Assembly: GCA_902386205.1 (NCBI GenBank)
Contig: CABMIH010000009.1
Coordinates: forward strand, 1 to 64,000
Source: an uncultured archaeon
Lineage (GTDB): Archaea > Halobacteriota > Methanosarcinia > Methanosarcinales > Methanoperedenaceae
Reading direction: 5' to 3'
DNA length: 64,000 bases
Below the pieces are notes generated by a model. The model saw nothing but the letters and a program-made list of their open reading frames with translations, was not told the origin of the DNA and did not search any database. The translations under genes and the position numbers were made by a program. Below, one piece after another: positions 37,915 to 46,316 of the stretch. Within the stretch, counting starts at the first letter, position 1; each line of letters starts with the position of its first letter.

Positions 37915-38775
37915 TCAGATGTACAGCCCGCCATTGATATCGATTACCTGCCCGGTTATGTAATCGCCGTCAGGAGACGCAAGGTAAGCTACAGTGCCGG
38001 CGACCTCCGATGCCCTTCCCAGTCTTCCGAGAGGTATTTTTGCAACGATTTTTTCAAGAACGTCATCAGGGACGCCTTTCACCATATCGGTCTCTATAAA
38101 TCCGGGCGCTATCGCATTCACCGTAACCCCTTTACCTGCAAATTCCTTTGCAAGCGCTTTCGTAAGCCCGATCATCCCGGCCTTTGCAGCCGTATAGTTC
38201 GCCTGCCCGAAATTACCCATCCTCCCGATAACCGAGGAAATATTTACGATCCTGCCGTAATTCCTTTCAAGCATGCCTTCTATGAATGCCTTGGTGCAAT
38301 AGAAAGCCCCGTTCAGGTTCACGGATAGGACATCAGACCACATATCATGGGTCATCTTGACAAATGATTTATCCCTGACTATTCCCGCGTTATTGACCAG
38401 GATATCGACCTTCCCGAACTGGCTGAGAACCTCTTCACGCATCCTGCTTACCTGTTCAGGACTGCTTACGTTCGCCTGGCAGATGTAAGAATGCCTGTCA
38501 ATGGCATCGATCAACTTTGAAAATTCCTGGGCCTTAACACCTGTATCCAGCCTGTCTATCTCAACCGCCAGTTTTTCGAGTTCATCCGCCATGCCCATCT
38601 GGTCTATCAGTTTGGACACCTTTTGCGCGTGTTCCTTCGTGCTCTGGTAATTGACTATAACATCTGCTCCTTCCTGCGCAAGCCGCAGTGCGATCGCCCG
38701 TCCGATCCCCCTTGAGCCCCCGGTAACAAGGGCAACTTTACCTTCAAGTCTTTTTCCATACTTTTTGTCCATCAT
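37915..38775 (-). CDS. phaB: SDR acetoacetyl-CoA reductase-like protein (PHA operon)
   Basis: The 286-residue short-chain dehydrogenase has the NADP site TGGSRGIGRAIALRL, NNAG, the catalytic Ser in NISSVIGRMG and YTAAKAGMIGLTKALAKEF with the Tyr-Lys pair. An extra stretch of about 40 residues (KLIDQMGMADELEKLAVEID onwards) lies after the second strand, not usual for PhaB/FabG. It starts two bases after the thiolase stop. It likely reduces acetoacetyl-CoA to hydroxybutyryl-CoA for PHA synthesis. The inserted stretch might alter coenzyme choice or oligomer contacts. Confidence 0.83.
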   Translation of the reverse strand: MMDKKYGKRLEGKVALVTGGSRGIGRAIALRLAQEGADVIVNYQSTKEHAQKVSKLIDQMGMADELEKLAVEIDRLDTGVKAQEFSKLIDAIDRHSYICQANVSSPEQVSRMREEVLSQFGKVDILVNNAGIVRDKSFVKMTHDMWSDVLSVNLNGAFYCTKAFIEGMLERNYGRIVNISSVIGRMGNFGQANYTAAKAGMIGLTKALAKEFAGKGVTVNAIAPGFIETDMVKGVPDDVLEKIVAKIPLGRLGRASEVAGTVAYLASPDGDYITGQVIDINGGLYI

Positions 38776-38776
38776 T

Positions 38777-39955
38777 TCACCTCTTTACAACCATCGCAAC
38801 GCCCTGCCCTCCTCCGACACAGAGGGTTGCAAGGCCGTATACGCTTTTACTTCTCTTCAGTTCATAGAGAAGTGTTACCAGGATCCTTGCGCCGCTTGCC
38901 CCTATCGGATGCCCGAGTGCTATGGCGCCTCCATTAACATTAACCCTGTCAGGATTCAGGCCCAGCGACTTATTGACCGCAATGCTCTGCGCTGCAAAGG
39001 CTTCATTGGCTTCTATAAAGTCAAGATCGCCTGTAGCGATACCGGCGCGCAGCAGGGCCTTTTTAGTTGCATCGATGGGCCCCGTACCCATTATTTCCGG
39101 CGCCACGCCGGACAGGCCGTAGCTCTTCACTGTTGCCAGGGGTTCAATCCCCTTATCTTTTGCTTTTTCTTCCGACATCAAAAGGACGCAGGCAGCCCCG
39201 TCATTAATGCCCGAGGCATTGCCCGCAGTCACTGTTCCGTCCTTTTTGAACGCCGGTTTTAGTTTTGACAGCGTCTCCTTCGTTGTCCCGAACCTGGGGA
39301 ATTCATCAGTATCGAAAAGAACAGGATCGCCTTTTGGCTGCGGTACAGGTACCGGAACTATCTCATCCTTGAAATTCCCGGCCTTGATGGCAGCTTCCGC
39401 TTTGTTCTGGCTCCGTGCCGAGAACTCATCCTGTTCTTCCCTTGTAATCCCGAATTTTTGTGCAACATTTTCAGCAGTAACTCCCATATGATAATTATTG
39501 AAAATATCCCACAGCCCGTCATGCACCATCAGGTCCACAAGTTCATCGTTCCCCATTTTCGCCCCCCAGCGGGCTTTTTTCAGTGCGTAGGGCGTTGTGG
39601 ACATGCATTCCACGCCGCCTGACAGGACGATATCAGCATCGCCCAGCATGATGGCCTGCGTGCCAAGAATAATTGATTTCAATCCCGAACCGCATACCTT
39701 GTTCACGCAATAAGATGAAACCTCAACAGGGATGCCTGCGGCGATCGCGGCCTGCCTCGCAACATTCTGCCCGTGACCCGCTGAAAGGACATTTCCCAGA
39801 ACGACCTCATCCACTTCGCCGGTATCCACATCTGCCCGCTTCAGCGCATCTTTCAATACTATGGAACCAAGCTGTCCGGGAGTGAAATCTTTCAGGCTTC
39901 CTCCGAATTTCCCGATCGCTGTGCGGGAGGCTGATGCAATAACGACATTTCTCAT
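38777..39955 (-). CDS. phaA: acetyl-CoA acetyltransferase (thiolase, PhaA-like)
   Basis: The 392-residue thiolase joins two acetyl-CoA to acetoacetyl-CoA, the first step of PHB synthesis. The nucleophile Cys lies in [11 protein letters not shown] near residue 88. The His lies in [17 protein letters not shown], and the second Cys lies in [11 protein letters not shown] near the end. Length and motifs are those of bacterial biosynthetic thiolases rather than of the archaeal mevalonate-pathway type, so transfer from bacteria is likely. It lies 13 bases after an SDR gene. Confidence 0.9.
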
Positions 39956-39968
39956 TTTGTCTCCTTGA

Positions 39969-40709
39969 TTATATCAGCAGGCCTCCATCCACACTGAGCA
40001 CTGCGCCGTTTACGAAATTAGCTTCATCCGAAGCCAGGTATAAAAGTGCATTTGCAATATCGTCAGGCTGTCCAAGTCTCTTCAGGGGGGTTTTCTCTTT
40101 CATCATCTCAAGTATTTTATCAGGTACCCCTGCCGTCATCGGAGTTGCTATAAATCCGGGAGCTACTGCATTGACCCTTATCCCCTTTTTCCCGAGTTCC
40201 TTTGCCAGAGTCTTTGTCATTCCTATCAATCCGGCTTTTGCAGCGGCATAGTTGGTCTGGCCGATATTGCCGTACAACCCAACAATAGAAGATACGTTTA
40301 TGATCTCGCCTGTCCCGTGTTCTGTCATGGCATCGACCACAGCCTGTATGCAGTTAAAAGGACCTTTAAGGTCTATCGTAATTACCTTGTCCCACTGCTC
40401 CTCTGTCATCTTTGATACAAGGGCATCCTGGTTGATTCCTGCATTGTTTATCAGTACGTCGATTTTGCCGAATCTTTCAAGTGTATCTTTTACAACCTGT
40501 TTCGATTGTTCCCTGTTTGAAACATCAAGTTTTGCGAAAAATGCTTCTCCGCCAGCCTTCTCGATCTCCTCTACTATTGCCCTCCCCCCGGTTTCATTCA
40601 GATCCGCCACCACGACTTTAGCTCCTTCCTGGGAGAAAGTCAGTGCGGTCTGCCTTCCGATACCGCTTGCTGCTCCTGTGATAATAACAACCTTGTTTTC
40701 AACTCTCAT
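39969..40709 (-). CDS. phaB: acetoacetyl-CoA reductase / 3-oxoacyl reductase (SDR)
   Basis: The 246-residue protein is a standard PhaB/FabG type reductase: [29 protein letters not shown], the catalytic Ser in [34 protein letters not shown] and [13 protein letters not shown]. It should make (R)-3-hydroxybutyryl-CoA for the polymerase. Its start overlaps the stop of phaC by four bases. Two reductases in one operon suggest different substrates, chain lengths or cofactors. Confidence 0.88.
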
Positions 40710-41878
40710 TTGTTAGTCTCCTTCGATTTTCGATTAATTTTTTTAATTTCTTTTTGTTTTATATGATTCGCATTCCCGGTTTCTTCAATCATGGAACGAG
40801 GCTTTAGCCAGTCGGCGATTTTAGGACAGACTTCGTTCTGGGATTTTGAACCCACGAACATGCCTATATGCCCTGTTGGAAAAACCAGTGTCTTCTTATC
40901 TGCGCTTGAAACGGCATCAGTGATAGGATGACTTGCATCGTTGGGGACAAGATGATCGAATTCTGCCATGACATTAAGGAGGGGCATTGATATTTTCGTG
41001 AGGTCGATCCTCTTTCCGCCAATCACCATCCTGTTCTTGACAAGGAGGTTTTTCTGGTAGCAGTCCTTGATGAATTGCCTGAAAGTCTCGCCTGCCTGGC
41101 CGGGACTGTCAAATATCCATTTTTCCATACGAAGAAAATTTTCAACTGTTCTTTTATCGTCCATCCGTTCAAGAAACCCTATGTACTTATCTATCAGGAG
41201 CCTGAAAGGATCAAGCAGCAGGAACCCCATGTTCAGGAAATCTCCCGGGACTATTCCATAGTAATCAACGATCTTATCGACGTCAAGTTTCTTTGCCCAT
41301 ATATTCAGGAGAGCCTTATCTGTATCAAAATCCAGCGGGGCCACAAAAGTAATGAGGTTTTTCACTTTTTCGGGGTGGAGCGCAGTGAACATCAGTGAAA
41401 AAGTCCCGCCCTGGCATACGCCCATAAGCGTGATACTGTCAAGACGCGACTTTTTCCGGATATAGTCCACTGCATTGTTAATGTAACCATTCACATAATC
41501 GTCAATAGTGAGATACCTGTCAGTGCCTGTGGGATATCCCCAGTCAATGGCATATACGTCAAAACCCTGGTCAAGCAGGTTCTTTATCACGCTCTTGTCG
41601 GGCTGGAGATCCAGGATATAATAACGGTTCACAAGAGCATACACTACAAGAACCGGTACCGGGCATGTTTTTTCTACTGTCGGCTTATAGTGGAGCAGTT
41701 GCATTTTATCTTCACTGTAAACTACGTTGTGAGGCGTTGTCCCGACAGAAAAATCCGGAGGCTCTATTAATATTTGTGCTCCTTTCGTAAATTTCATGTA
41801 ATTGTTCTGTAACAGATCAAGCTCACCCATAATGCTTTCCTGGATCATAAAATACTCACATATTTCCTGAGAGTTCAT
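40706..41878 (-). CDS. phaC: class III polyhydroxyalkanoate synthase subunit PhaC
   Basis: PhaC polymerises hydroxyacyl-CoA into PHA granules. The 390-residue protein has the modified lipase box GVCQGGTFSLMF with the nucleophile Cys, the Asp in MAEFDHLVPNDASHP and the His in FPTGHIGMFVG. This size and the separate PhaE show class III. The first ATG overlaps phaE by 23 bases. ATG 41848 with GTGAG six bases ahead, or ATG 41830 with AGGAA ahead, may be the true start. The Lys-rich tail ([17 protein letters not shown]) is extra and may bind the granule or DNA. Confidence 0.92.
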   Translation of the reverse strand: MNSQEICEYFMIQESIMGELDLLQNNYMKFTKGAQILIEPPDFSVGTTPHNVVYSEDKMQLLHYKPTVEKTCPVPVLVVYALVNRYYILDLQPDKSVIKNLLDQGFDVYAIDWGYPTGTDRYLTIDDYVNGYINNAVDYIRKKSRLDSITLMGVCQGGTFSLMFTALHPEKVKNLITFVAPLDFDTDKALLNIWAKKLDVDKIVDYYGIVPGDFLNMGFLLLDPFRLLIDKYIGFLERMDDKRTVENFLRMEKWIFDSPGQAGETFRQFIKDCYQKNLLVKNRMVIGGKRIDLTKISMPLLNVMAEFDHLVPNDASHPITDAVSSADKKTLVFPTGHIGMFVGSKSQNEVCPKIADWLKPRSMIEETGNANHIKQKEIKKINRKSKETNK

Positions 41879-42401
41879 TGACTTTACAGGTTAACTCTTT
41901 TACCTTTTTATTAAGAGAATACAATTCTTTGTTCAATTCATCGATTTCAGTCTTTGTCGGAAGATTCATGGGTTTAAGAAAGCTCTCCTCAAGCATTTCC
42001 TGGTTGTATTTCTGGGCTTCTATGAAGCTTGACATGAATTTCCCTGAATCCGAAGCAAAATGACCTGATCTCAGGAATTCCTTGAAAGTATCGCTATAGG
42101 TTTCGATCCATATGTTGTAAAGTTCTCTGGACTGCTCAGGACTGATCTCACCCTCCATGTCAGCAGCTTTTTCCTGCATCCTGTTCATGGCTTCCATGGA
42201 AAGTTTCTGGAAATCGGAAACCGAGTCCATCCATGTTTCATAAAGGTTAAAAAACAGCGAGAAACCCCTCATCATTTTTTCAGATCTCTCGCGCGCCGGC
42301 CCCATGGCAGGCAATTCGGCCAGCTTGCCGAAGGAAGCGTCACAGGTTTTCAAATACATATTAAAAAAATCTTGTGTAGATGCAAACCTTGCGTTATCCA
42401 T
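41856..42401 (-). CDS. phaE: PHA synthase subunit PhaE
   Basis: PhaE binds and activates class III PhaC. The 181-residue helical protein shows FSLFFNLYETWMDSVSDFQK, LYNIWIETYSDTFKEFLRSG and a C-terminal coiled coil (IDELNKELYSLNKKVKELTC). These are PHA_synth_III_E features, though the length is at the short end. The motif around YNIWIETY recurs several times in the protein encoded just upstream. It overlaps phaC. Confidence 0.88.
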   Translation of the reverse strand: MDNARFASTQDFFNMYLKTCDASFGKLAELPAMGPARERSEKMMRGFSLFFNLYETWMDSVSDFQKLSMEAMNRMQEKAADMEGEISPEQSRELYNIWIETYSDTFKEFLRSGHFASDSGKFMSSFIEAQKYNQEMLEESFLKPMNLPTKTEIDELNKELYSLNKKVKELTCKVNELSGNM

Positions 42402-42403
42402 AG

Positions 42404-43492
42404 TTATACCTTAAAAGGATTCCCGGAGCGCAGGTACGAATCCATACACAATTTTGACATCTTGATTGAAGTATTTGAATATATTTTACTTGCGTTCTTT
42501 ACAGGGTCCATGATCTCTTTCAGGGGGCTGATCATAGGCATTCCTTCAAAGAAGTCTTCAAAAGCCCTCTCATGCATTTTTACCCAGAGATTAAAAAATT
42601 CCTTATAAGCCTCAGGGTCTGTGGTCAGCTTTGAGTTATCTTTTAATTTTTCTGATATTTTTTCAAGAGCTGCTATCCAGGATTTATACAGGTTAAGGCA
42701 GATGTTGGTGCTCTCTAAGAAATTTTCGAATGCTTCCTTTGAAGGCTTCATGGAATTGCTGTCAAACAACTTGCCATATGTCTCCTGGTATGTGTGCATC
42801 CATATGTTATAAAATTCCTTGTAGGTCTCCGGGGTTCCCTCGCCTTTTGAGATCTTTGCTACGTTCCCGGAAAGCTTCTGCATGGCTTCTACCCATGGGT
42901 CATATAGCCTGGTGTATGAATCCTTCCAGAGTTTTGACATTTTCACAAAACTATCAGTGTAAAAATCCGGAATACCTGTGTAATTTTCAAAAGTCTCTTT
43001 ATGATATCTGATGGCTGGCAGATCAAGTAATTGTTCTGATATTTTTTCGTAGGTCTTCATCCACATATCATGGATTTCTTTGTATTTTGCAGGATCTGCT
43101 CCGTTGGTAAGCACCTCTGTAGTCTTGCGTGTATTCTCTTCGAACTCATCCATCCACGATTTGTATATCTTTTTTGATTCATCGGCGCTTTTTAAGAAAT
43201 TCTCAAGAGTTTCTTTGGGAGCCGGTGTTGAAACTGGATAAAACCTTCCAAATGAATTCTGGTATGTTTTCATCCATTCATCGTAAAAGTCCTTGTATTT
43301 TTTCGGGACTGCATTTGCCGAAAGGTCAGCCATCTTCTGGGATACGTCCATAAATTCAATCCAGGGCTTGTACAGTTTCAAGTAGGATTCATCCCACATT
43401 TTCGATACCCCGACATAACTGTCGGCCCAGGTTTTGAAAATATCCCGGTTCTCGTCGAGCGTTTCACCTTTATCATCATGTTTCTTGGTCAT
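42404..43492 (-). CDS. PhaE-like protein with internal duplication
   Basis: The 362-residue helical protein is the first gene of the PHA operon. It has four copies of a WMxTY motif: YKDFYDEWMKTY (66), YKEIHDMWMKTY (137), YKEFYNIWMHTY (224) and YKEFFNLWVKMH (296). A second motif, MWDESYLKLYKPWIEFM (32) and LWKDSYTRLYDPWVEAM (188), shows that residues 29-184 and 185-344 are a tandem duplication, with a third unit begun at the end. PhaE shares the YNIWIETY motif. Likely roles are a second PhaC activator, a phasin or a granule scaffold. It has no signal peptide or membrane segment. TATA-like ctatatata lies near 43525, and GAGGG precedes the ATG. Confidence 0.75.
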   Translation of the reverse strand: MTKKHDDKGETLDENRDIFKTWADSYVGVSKMWDESYLKLYKPWIEFMDVSQKMADLSANAVPKKYKDFYDEWMKTYQNSFGRFYPVSTPAPKETLENFLKSADESKKIYKSWMDEFEENTRKTTEVLTNGADPAKYKEIHDMWMKTYEKISEQLLDLPAIRYHKETFENYTGIPDFYTDSFVKMSKLWKDSYTRLYDPWVEAMQKLSGNVAKISKGEGTPETYKEFYNIWMHTYQETYGKLFDSNSMKPSKEAFENFLESTNICLNLYKSWIAALEKISEKLKDNSKLTTDPEAYKEFFNLWVKMHERAFEDFFEGMPMISPLKEIMDPVKNASKIYSNTSIKMSKLCMDSYLRSGNPFKV

Positions 43493-44938: not shown

Positions 44939-45000
44939 AGTTATATAGTTAAACAACAATTAAAATAGTGAGCCGCAATTTCGAAGGAGGCTTCAAATAT

Positions 45001-46200
45001 ATGGTCACAGATCTGAAAGAATTTGCAAAGACTGCAAAACCATCTGTTGCTGTTGTCGGGCTGGGTGGTGCTGGTTGCAATATAACGACATGGATCGCTG
45101 AGAAAGGAATGTCTGGCGGCAGGATAATTGCTGCCAATACCGATGTGAATCATCTTTACATACAGAAAGCGGACAAAGTGATCCTGCTTGGAGAAAAACT
45201 CTGCAAAGGTCATGGTTGCGGAGGATTCCCTGAAATGGGGGGCCAGGCTGCAAGGGAAAATATCGTAGAATTAAAAACTGAACTTGAAGGTGCGAATCTT
45301 GTATTCCTTGTGGCCGGATTGGGCGGAGGAACAGGAACGGGCGCCATGCCTGTTGTTGCAGAGCTCACACGCGAGATGGGGGCTCTTACAATCGGATGCG
45401 TGACAATCCCGTTCACAATAGAAATGGCAAGAAGGGAGAAAGCCAGGGAAGCGATAAACCTGCTTGCCTCTTCATGCGATTCAGTAGTAATTATTGATAA
45501 CACGAAATTAAGGGAAGTTGCTGGTAATCTCCCATTAAAAGAAGCCCTCAATGTTGCGAACGCGCTTGTTGGAGCATTCGTTAAGAACCTGACTGACACA
45601 ATAACCCAGCCAAGTCTTGTTAATCTGGACTATGCTGACCTTCGCGCAGTAATGGAACGCGGCGGGATATCATCAATCGGAATCGGTGAAAGCGATGGCA
45701 ATGATAGGGTCGAGAAGGCAGTTGCACAGGATATCAGAACCCCGCTGCTTGATGTCACGGATATTTCCTCAAGCTATGGCGTCCTTGTACATATCGTAGG
45801 AGCCGAGGACCTGACACTTGAAGAAGTGGCGGTAGCAGGCGAACTGATAATGGACAAAGTCCCGAACACAAAGAGGATCATCTGGGGCGCAAAGGTGGAT
45901 AACAACCTCACCGGGGCGGTCCGCGTTATGGCAGTATTGACAGGTGTTGAGAGCCCGTTCGTATCAGGTGCCGAACCCCGGAAAGTAAAGGTGGAAGAAA
46001 AACCTGTTGAAGAACCGGTACCCGAACCTGTGATCGAAAAGCCAAAAGTTGAAGCCCCGAAGCCAAAACCAATCGTTCGGATTACACCAAAACCTGAAGT
46101 CGTGAAAGAAGAAGAAAAGGGCAGCGGCGCCTATATCTGGATAGCAATAATCATCGTAATAGTAGCGATTGTTCTCTGGTATCTTACACAGACGGGATAA
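45001..46200 (+). CDS. ftsZ: FtsZ-family GTPase with C-terminal transmembrane anchor
   Basis: The GTPase part (residues 1-310) has GLGGAGCNITTWIAEK, the tubulin signature GLGGGTGTGAMPVVAEL and the T7-like loop NLDYADLRAVM, so it can bind and probably hydrolyse GTP in filaments. After it comes a linker of about 55 residues rich in Pro, Glu, Lys and Val, then a hydrophobic helix (AYIWIAIIIVIVAIVLWYL) that ends the protein. Normal FtsZ ends in a short peptide for FtsA, ZipA or SepF; here the polymer appears tied directly to the membrane. ATG 45001 is preferred, as AAGGAGG lies 10 bases ahead. The protein is 399 residues, with an attenuator-like hairpin after it. Confidence 0.85.
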   Translation: MVTDLKEFAKTAKPSVAVVGLGGAGCNITTWIAEKGMSGGRIIAANTDVNHLYIQKADKVILLGEKLCKGHGCGGFPEMGGQAARENIVELKTELEGANLVFLVAGLGGGTGTGAMPVVAELTREMGALTIGCVTIPFTIEMARREKAREAINLLASSCDSVVIIDNTKLREVAGNLPLKEALNVANALVGAFVKNLTDTITQPSLVNLDYADLRAVMERGGISSIGIGESDGNDRVEKAVAQDIRTPLLDVTDISSSYGVLVHIVGAEDLTLEEVAVAGELIMDKVPNTKRIIWGAKVDNNLTGAVRVMAVLTGVESPFVSGAEPRKVKVEEKPVEEPVPEPVIEKPKVEAPKPKPIVRITPKPEVVKEEEKGSGAYIWIAIIIVIVAIVLWYLTQTG

Positions 46201-46208
46201 GGTCGGTG

Positions 46209-46234
46209 TTCCGGTAAAAACCGGAAACTTTTTT
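46209..46234 (+). terminator. hairpin plus T-run terminator after ftsZ
   Basis: TTCCGGT (46209-46215) pairs with ACCGGAA (46220-46226) over an A4 loop, and a run of T (46229-46234) follows. It separates the ftsZ transcript from ileS. Confidence 0.7.
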
Positions 46235-46316
46235 CATTTCTATTTCTTCTTTTCCAAACCATAAGTTTTAATTGCTTTATCGCATTACTACCCTCCATTC
46301 TTTGGAGATTATTTTT

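Follow-up and report, generated by a model that had tools for sequence, protein, structure and literature searches.

Can an otherwise ordinary FtsZ be an integral membrane protein and, if so, does it replace the adaptor-based division machinery of its host or act beside it? In the usual description, an adaptor or a peripheral helix binds FtsZ filaments to the membrane, and the question is raised by a gene at positions 45001..46200 (+) of the window, a 64,000-nucleotide stretch of DNA from Candidatus Methanoperedens (ANME-2d; host genome of 2.79 Mb in 88 contigs). A sequence-only reading of this locus had described an FtsZ homologue whose GTPase core is followed by a Pro/Glu/Lys-rich linker and a 19-residue hydrophobic helix in place of an adaptor-binding peptide, and had suggested that a filament tied directly to the membrane would need no adaptor for division.

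The gene, assigned here to clade 3, subfamily A, is a single frame, unbroken from ATG to TAA, that encodes 399 residues (all of its features are on the + strand). A probable ribosome-binding site, AAGGAGG, read off the sequence, is located 10 nt before the ATG (44984..44990), and a terminator-like hairpin with a T run, a kind of site no commoner in the region than expected by chance, lies between ftsZ and ileS (46209..46236). The core contains a GTPase domain (PF00091, residues 16-174, 45046..45522; Pfam Tubulin E 3e-37) and an FtsZ_C domain (PF12327, residues 222-317, 45664..45951; E 2e-25), and it scores 337.7 bits against the TIGR00065 ftsZ equivalog over residues 8-328, relative to a curated cut-off of 295.2. 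All loops are intact, including the GTP-binding motifs GLGGAGCN, GGGTGTG (the T4 tubulin signature, residues 108-114, 45322..45342) and IDNTKL, and the catalytic T7 synergy loop NLDYAD (residues 208-213, 45622..45639), and the sequence-only reading was right to place GGGTGTG and the T7 loop in the core. An AlphaFold2 model, built from an alignment of 23 relatives, has the FtsZ fold (core mean pLDDT 72, pTM 0.71), and its top Foldseek match in the PDB is Methanocaldococcus jannaschii FtsZ (E 5e-36), with a TM-score of 0.86-0.87 normalised to target length. Judged by its motifs and predicted fold, the protein is a canonical FtsZ that is probably competent to polymerise.

Beyond this core, the tail is composed of a linker and a helix. 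The linker (residues ~324-373, 45970..46119) contains 11 P, 12 E and 10 K in 51 residues, and AlphaFold2 predicts residues 328-377 to be disordered (pLDDT 31-43). The C-terminal transmembrane helix, AYIWIAIIIVIVAIVLWYL, spans residues 377-395 (46129..46185), with AlphaFold2 modelling residues 375-398 as helical at a pLDDT of ~78. On the Kyte-Doolittle scale its 19 residues average 2.77, compared with 1.44 or less for any 19-mer that begins before residue 320, and the Wimley-White octanol and GES scales concur. An adaptor-binding ending of the GSIIDxI or YGIDFV type is absent. The N-terminus, MVTDLKEFAKTAK, runs directly into the FtsZ core with no signal peptide by inspection, and the stretch MVTDLKEFAK is common to the orthologues. 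The protein thus has a single helix within ~30 residues of its C-terminus and no signal peptide, and resembles tail-anchored membrane proteins, which likewise combine a soluble N-terminal domain with one C-terminal helix and lack a signal peptide. In the orthologues, the helix shows a recurrent YIWI...LLWY pattern and is followed by only 1-6 residues, while the linker varies in both length and sequence.

The window protein is neither FtsZ1 nor FtsZ2. In a maximum-likelihood tree, the six copies of its genome that are not FtsZ1 or FtsZ2, together with their orthologues and copies from ANME-1, form a single clade (support 100/100) separate from both, which we call clade 3. In an earlier, bacterially rooted tree, this clade groups nearest FtsZ2 (99%). 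The window FtsZ sits on a long separate stem and is 42% identical to FtsZ1 and 43% to FtsZ2. Membership of FtsZ1 or FtsZ2 is rejected, as it falls together with paralogues B-F and the copies from ANME-1. A CetZ identity is rejected as well: the window FtsZ is 40-43% identical to FtsZ1/2 but 19-27% identical to the order's weak third homologues, which are presumed to be CetZ-like. The phylogeny that the sequence-only reading had suggested, against FtsZ1, FtsZ2 and CetZ, thus yielded a third group apart from all three. Clade 3 comprises six subfamilies in Methanoperedens, for which the names A-F were coined in the present analysis. The helix-bearing subfamily A is monophyletic (100/100), and its sister is the tail-less B/D group (95/87). 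Across 393 genomes of 136 genera in the phylum, matches at E <= 1e-95 were confined to Methanoperedens and one ANME-1 genus, with none in another genus of Methanoperedens' own family.

The ANME-1 (Methanophagales-like) genus encodes a tandem pair of clade-3 genes adjoining a divergent ftsZ2 (L217 = G206:C13; G168:C292). One copy has a P/E/K-rich linker that ends in KKKRAPLFGR and carries no helix, and the other has a tail like that of subfamily C. As the ANME-1 copies are without a helix, either the Methanoperedens line acquired it or the ANME-1 line lost it. The subfamily C tail is itself conserved (KPLREAMEHM...KAAVFSKEK, in L008, the C copy of the window genome, and L080-L112) and resembles that of the ANME-1 copy (L217). 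A tree test on the core sequence rejects the C-tailed Methanophagales copy as an orthologue of Methanoperedens subfamily C (AU p 6.7e-5), and gene conversion or an ancestral tail are possible sources of the likeness. The ANME-1-like genus also has 10-12 tubulin-superfamily matches and two SepF genes per genome, and an open frame of 900 residues that weakly matches the tubulin family (G206:C40:2882-3439) is possibly a divergent member of the superfamily.

Conservation shows that the tail belongs to the protein. Exactly one orthologue, 79-100% identical through the helix, was found in each of 30 of the 31 Methanoperedens genomes, the exception being a genome that is 68% complete, and all three hydrophobicity scales place the helix in every orthologue retrieved. 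Among 153 distinct tubulin-superfamily proteins, the 29 with the helix are subfamily A copies and the remaining 124 lack it. Further afield, no C-terminal helix was present in 30 additional FtsZ proteins of the phylum (the best-scoring, hence a non-random set), and a search of the phylum with the tail alone matched P/E- or P/T-rich membrane proteins and no additional FtsZ. Viral contigs contained no relatives; plasmids and phages yielded distant FtsZ proteins only (<60% identity), and among the matches listed none covers the tail. Borgs have been reported to carry tubulin/FtsZ-like genes, and in the collections searched nothing was recognised as Borg sequence. In subfamily A orthologues, pN/pS is 0.09 for the core, 0.41 for the linker and 0.39 for the helix, values to be read with synonymous sites close to saturation and with tail columns that omit four orthologues; on these ratios, the helix is under purifying selection. 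The retention of the helix in every orthologue, its presence in 30 of 31 genomes and this selection together argue against a chance tail, and the helix-tailed FtsZ is almost certainly real as a structural claim. The linker and helix described by the sequence-only reading therefore stand, and neither of the two outcomes that it had named against itself materialised: hydrophobicity scales and AlphaFold2 give a helix, and the tail, shared by the orthologues, is in frame with the core.

A hydrophobic C-terminus could also serve as an archaeosortase-type signal for export or sorting, or be a chance tail without membrane function. Archaeal surface proteins that end in a transmembrane segment do have P/E/T-rich stalks similar in composition to the linker (weak matches, L241-L243); however, there is neither a signal peptide nor a PGF-type motif, and a helix found in all subfamily A orthologues retrieved and in 0 of 124 other proteins makes either explanation most improbable.

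If the helix is a genuine anchor, one might expect the adaptors to be dispensable, and it is here that the sequence-only reading held only in part. Direct tethering to the membrane is the natural reading of the tail and has good support from the sequence, but the adaptor has not been dispensed with. The window genome encodes eight FtsZs (FtsZ1, FtsZ2 and six clade-3 copies, one of which bears the helix), and the second, normal-tailed FtsZ that had been proposed as a check is among them, as FtsZ2 ends in the SepF-type peptide GSIIDQIM. All genomes tested, this one included, encode SepF. Since SepF, FtsZ1 and a SepF-type FtsZ2 are all present, the helix-tailed FtsZ has not taken the place of the adaptor-based machinery and need not be part of the division ring; with that set intact, the protein more probably adds to it than replaces it. 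Expansion of the family is general in the genus: Methanoperedens genomes carry 5-11 tubulin-superfamily genes each, with two FtsZ1-like copies in some (G009, G005, G007 and others), whereas one to three FtsZs are the rule among 197 genomes of the phylum. Genome G014 (10 contigs, 99% complete), for example, encodes FtsZ1 and FtsZ2 plus a single copy each of A, B and C. The clade-3 paralogues B, C and D are 72-81% identical to the window FtsZ, with intact loops and shared subunit-interface motifs; B and D are tail-less, and C has a different tail.

In our preferred reading, held with somewhat better than even confidence from the sequence evidence, a canonical FtsZ has turned into an integral membrane protein, anchored by its C-terminal tail, that likely serves as a built-in anchor for clade-3 filaments. 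The absence of a signal peptide and the 1-6 residues beyond the helix suggest that the FtsZ core would lie in the cytosol, with the flexible linker acting as the usual spacer and the helix embedded in the membrane. Filaments containing this subunit would then form on the inner membrane face without SepF. They may, more speculatively, include paralogues B, C and D, as identity and shared interface motifs suggest. Subfamily A would be the anchoring subunit of such a mixed filament, doing in cis the job that FtsA, ZipA and SepF do in trans. This is an economical model, though paralogue identity alone is no proof of it. The mixed filament may constitute a second tubulin-type cytoskeleton beside FtsZ1/FtsZ2/SepF, serving division or envelope and shape control. 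We offer only tentatively this larger proposal of a self-anchored cytoskeleton, in which mixed clade-3 filaments with an integral FtsZ anchor stand apart from the FtsZ1/FtsZ2/SepF ring. One objection is that a subunit inserted for good may be too slow to work in a dynamic ring.

Alternatively, the helix-tailed FtsZ may co-assemble with FtsZ1/FtsZ2 at mid-cell and tether or tune the main ring as a second, SepF-independent anchor. All of the partners in that arrangement are FtsZ, and Methanoperedens ftsZ transcripts have been taken as cell-division markers, with the copies undistinguished (PMC12138975, PMC11337218). However, its 42-43% identity to FtsZ1/FtsZ2 and long separate stem make co-polymerisation with them less likely than with clade 3, and SepF and the FtsZ2 tail remain intact, so that we regard a main-ring role as unlikely. 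A further reading, again no more than tentatively proposed, is that the protein does no division work and serves instead as a tubulin-type scaffold, bound to the membrane, that organises cell shape, the envelope or protein patches, with a purpose like that of CetZ and no kinship to it. The standard division set is complete without the helix-tailed FtsZ, relatives in the order have FtsZ1 and FtsZ2 without clade 3, and a tubulin/FtsZ transcript, its copy unspecified, has been listed among Methanoperedens cell-architecture genes (PMC11208441). On the other hand, a division role fits the same molecular picture, and the neighbourhood specific to the helix-tailed copy lends a scaffold no support.

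That neighbourhood is in fact variable. The placement between srp54 and ileS noted in the sequence-only reading is correct for the window, but it fails as a functional clue, as it is lineage-specific: srp54 is found upstream at only 14 of the 27 orthologous loci and ileS downstream at 7, some loci being cut by contig ends. In the remaining lineages, the subfamily A gene has unrelated neighbours, and the tail is kept wherever the gene sits. The idea of an srp54/ileS operon was dropped for this variability, and no neighbour at the orthologous loci ties the helix-tailed FtsZ to division or the envelope. Beside srp54 in the window is an apparent polyhydroxyalkanoate gene cluster (37915-43492, -), with two SDR-type reductases, a thiolase and a PhaC-like synthase recognised by eye, and two PhaE-like products examined by family search, a subunit (41856-42401) and a longer, repetitive protein (42404-43492).

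Several known systems invite comparison. Archaeal FtsZ2, which is tethered by SepF, shares the FtsZ fold and the GTPase and T7 loops with the window FtsZ, but is only 43% identical and ends in a SepF-binding peptide where the window protein has a linker and transmembrane helix. OdinFtsZ1 has been shown to bind membranes directly through an N-terminal amphipathic helix (PMC12583498). Direct attachment, demonstrated there, is predicted for the window FtsZ, but archaeal FtsZ1 is 42% identical to it, and the Odin helix is peripheral and N-terminal rather than C-terminal and transmembrane. Natural direct binding at a terminus is also known from Mycoplasma FtsZ and chloroplast FtsZ1, which PMC12583498 cites as having membrane-targeting or membrane-interacting ends and not a transmembrane span. 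The engineered FtsZ-YFP-mts, which treadmills on membranes, has a C-terminal tether in cis through a linker, as here, but the tether is an engineered targeting sequence rather than a natural integral helix (PMC7320174). Finally, one archaeal member of the FtsZl1 family has been reported as fused to a transmembrane region; that family is highly divergent, without identifiable T6-H7 and FtsZ C-terminal domain, whereas the window FtsZ is canonical (PMC2875224). An FtsZl1 identity was rejected on the presence of the T6 motif and FtsZ_C. A search of the open-access literature found no canonical FtsZ with a transmembrane anchor, no report on clade 3 and no work on the FtsZ complement of Methanoperedens, which is weak evidence of absence in each case.

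Taken together, a natural FtsZ with its own transmembrane anchor, kept genus-wide, offers a test case for whether a tubulin-type subunit fixed permanently in the membrane remains capable of treadmilling or constriction. It further draws attention to an FtsZ expansion, so far unstudied, in a methane oxidiser of environmental importance, and it advises caution wherever Methanoperedens 'ftsZ' transcripts are used as division markers, as these may derive from several functionally different genes.
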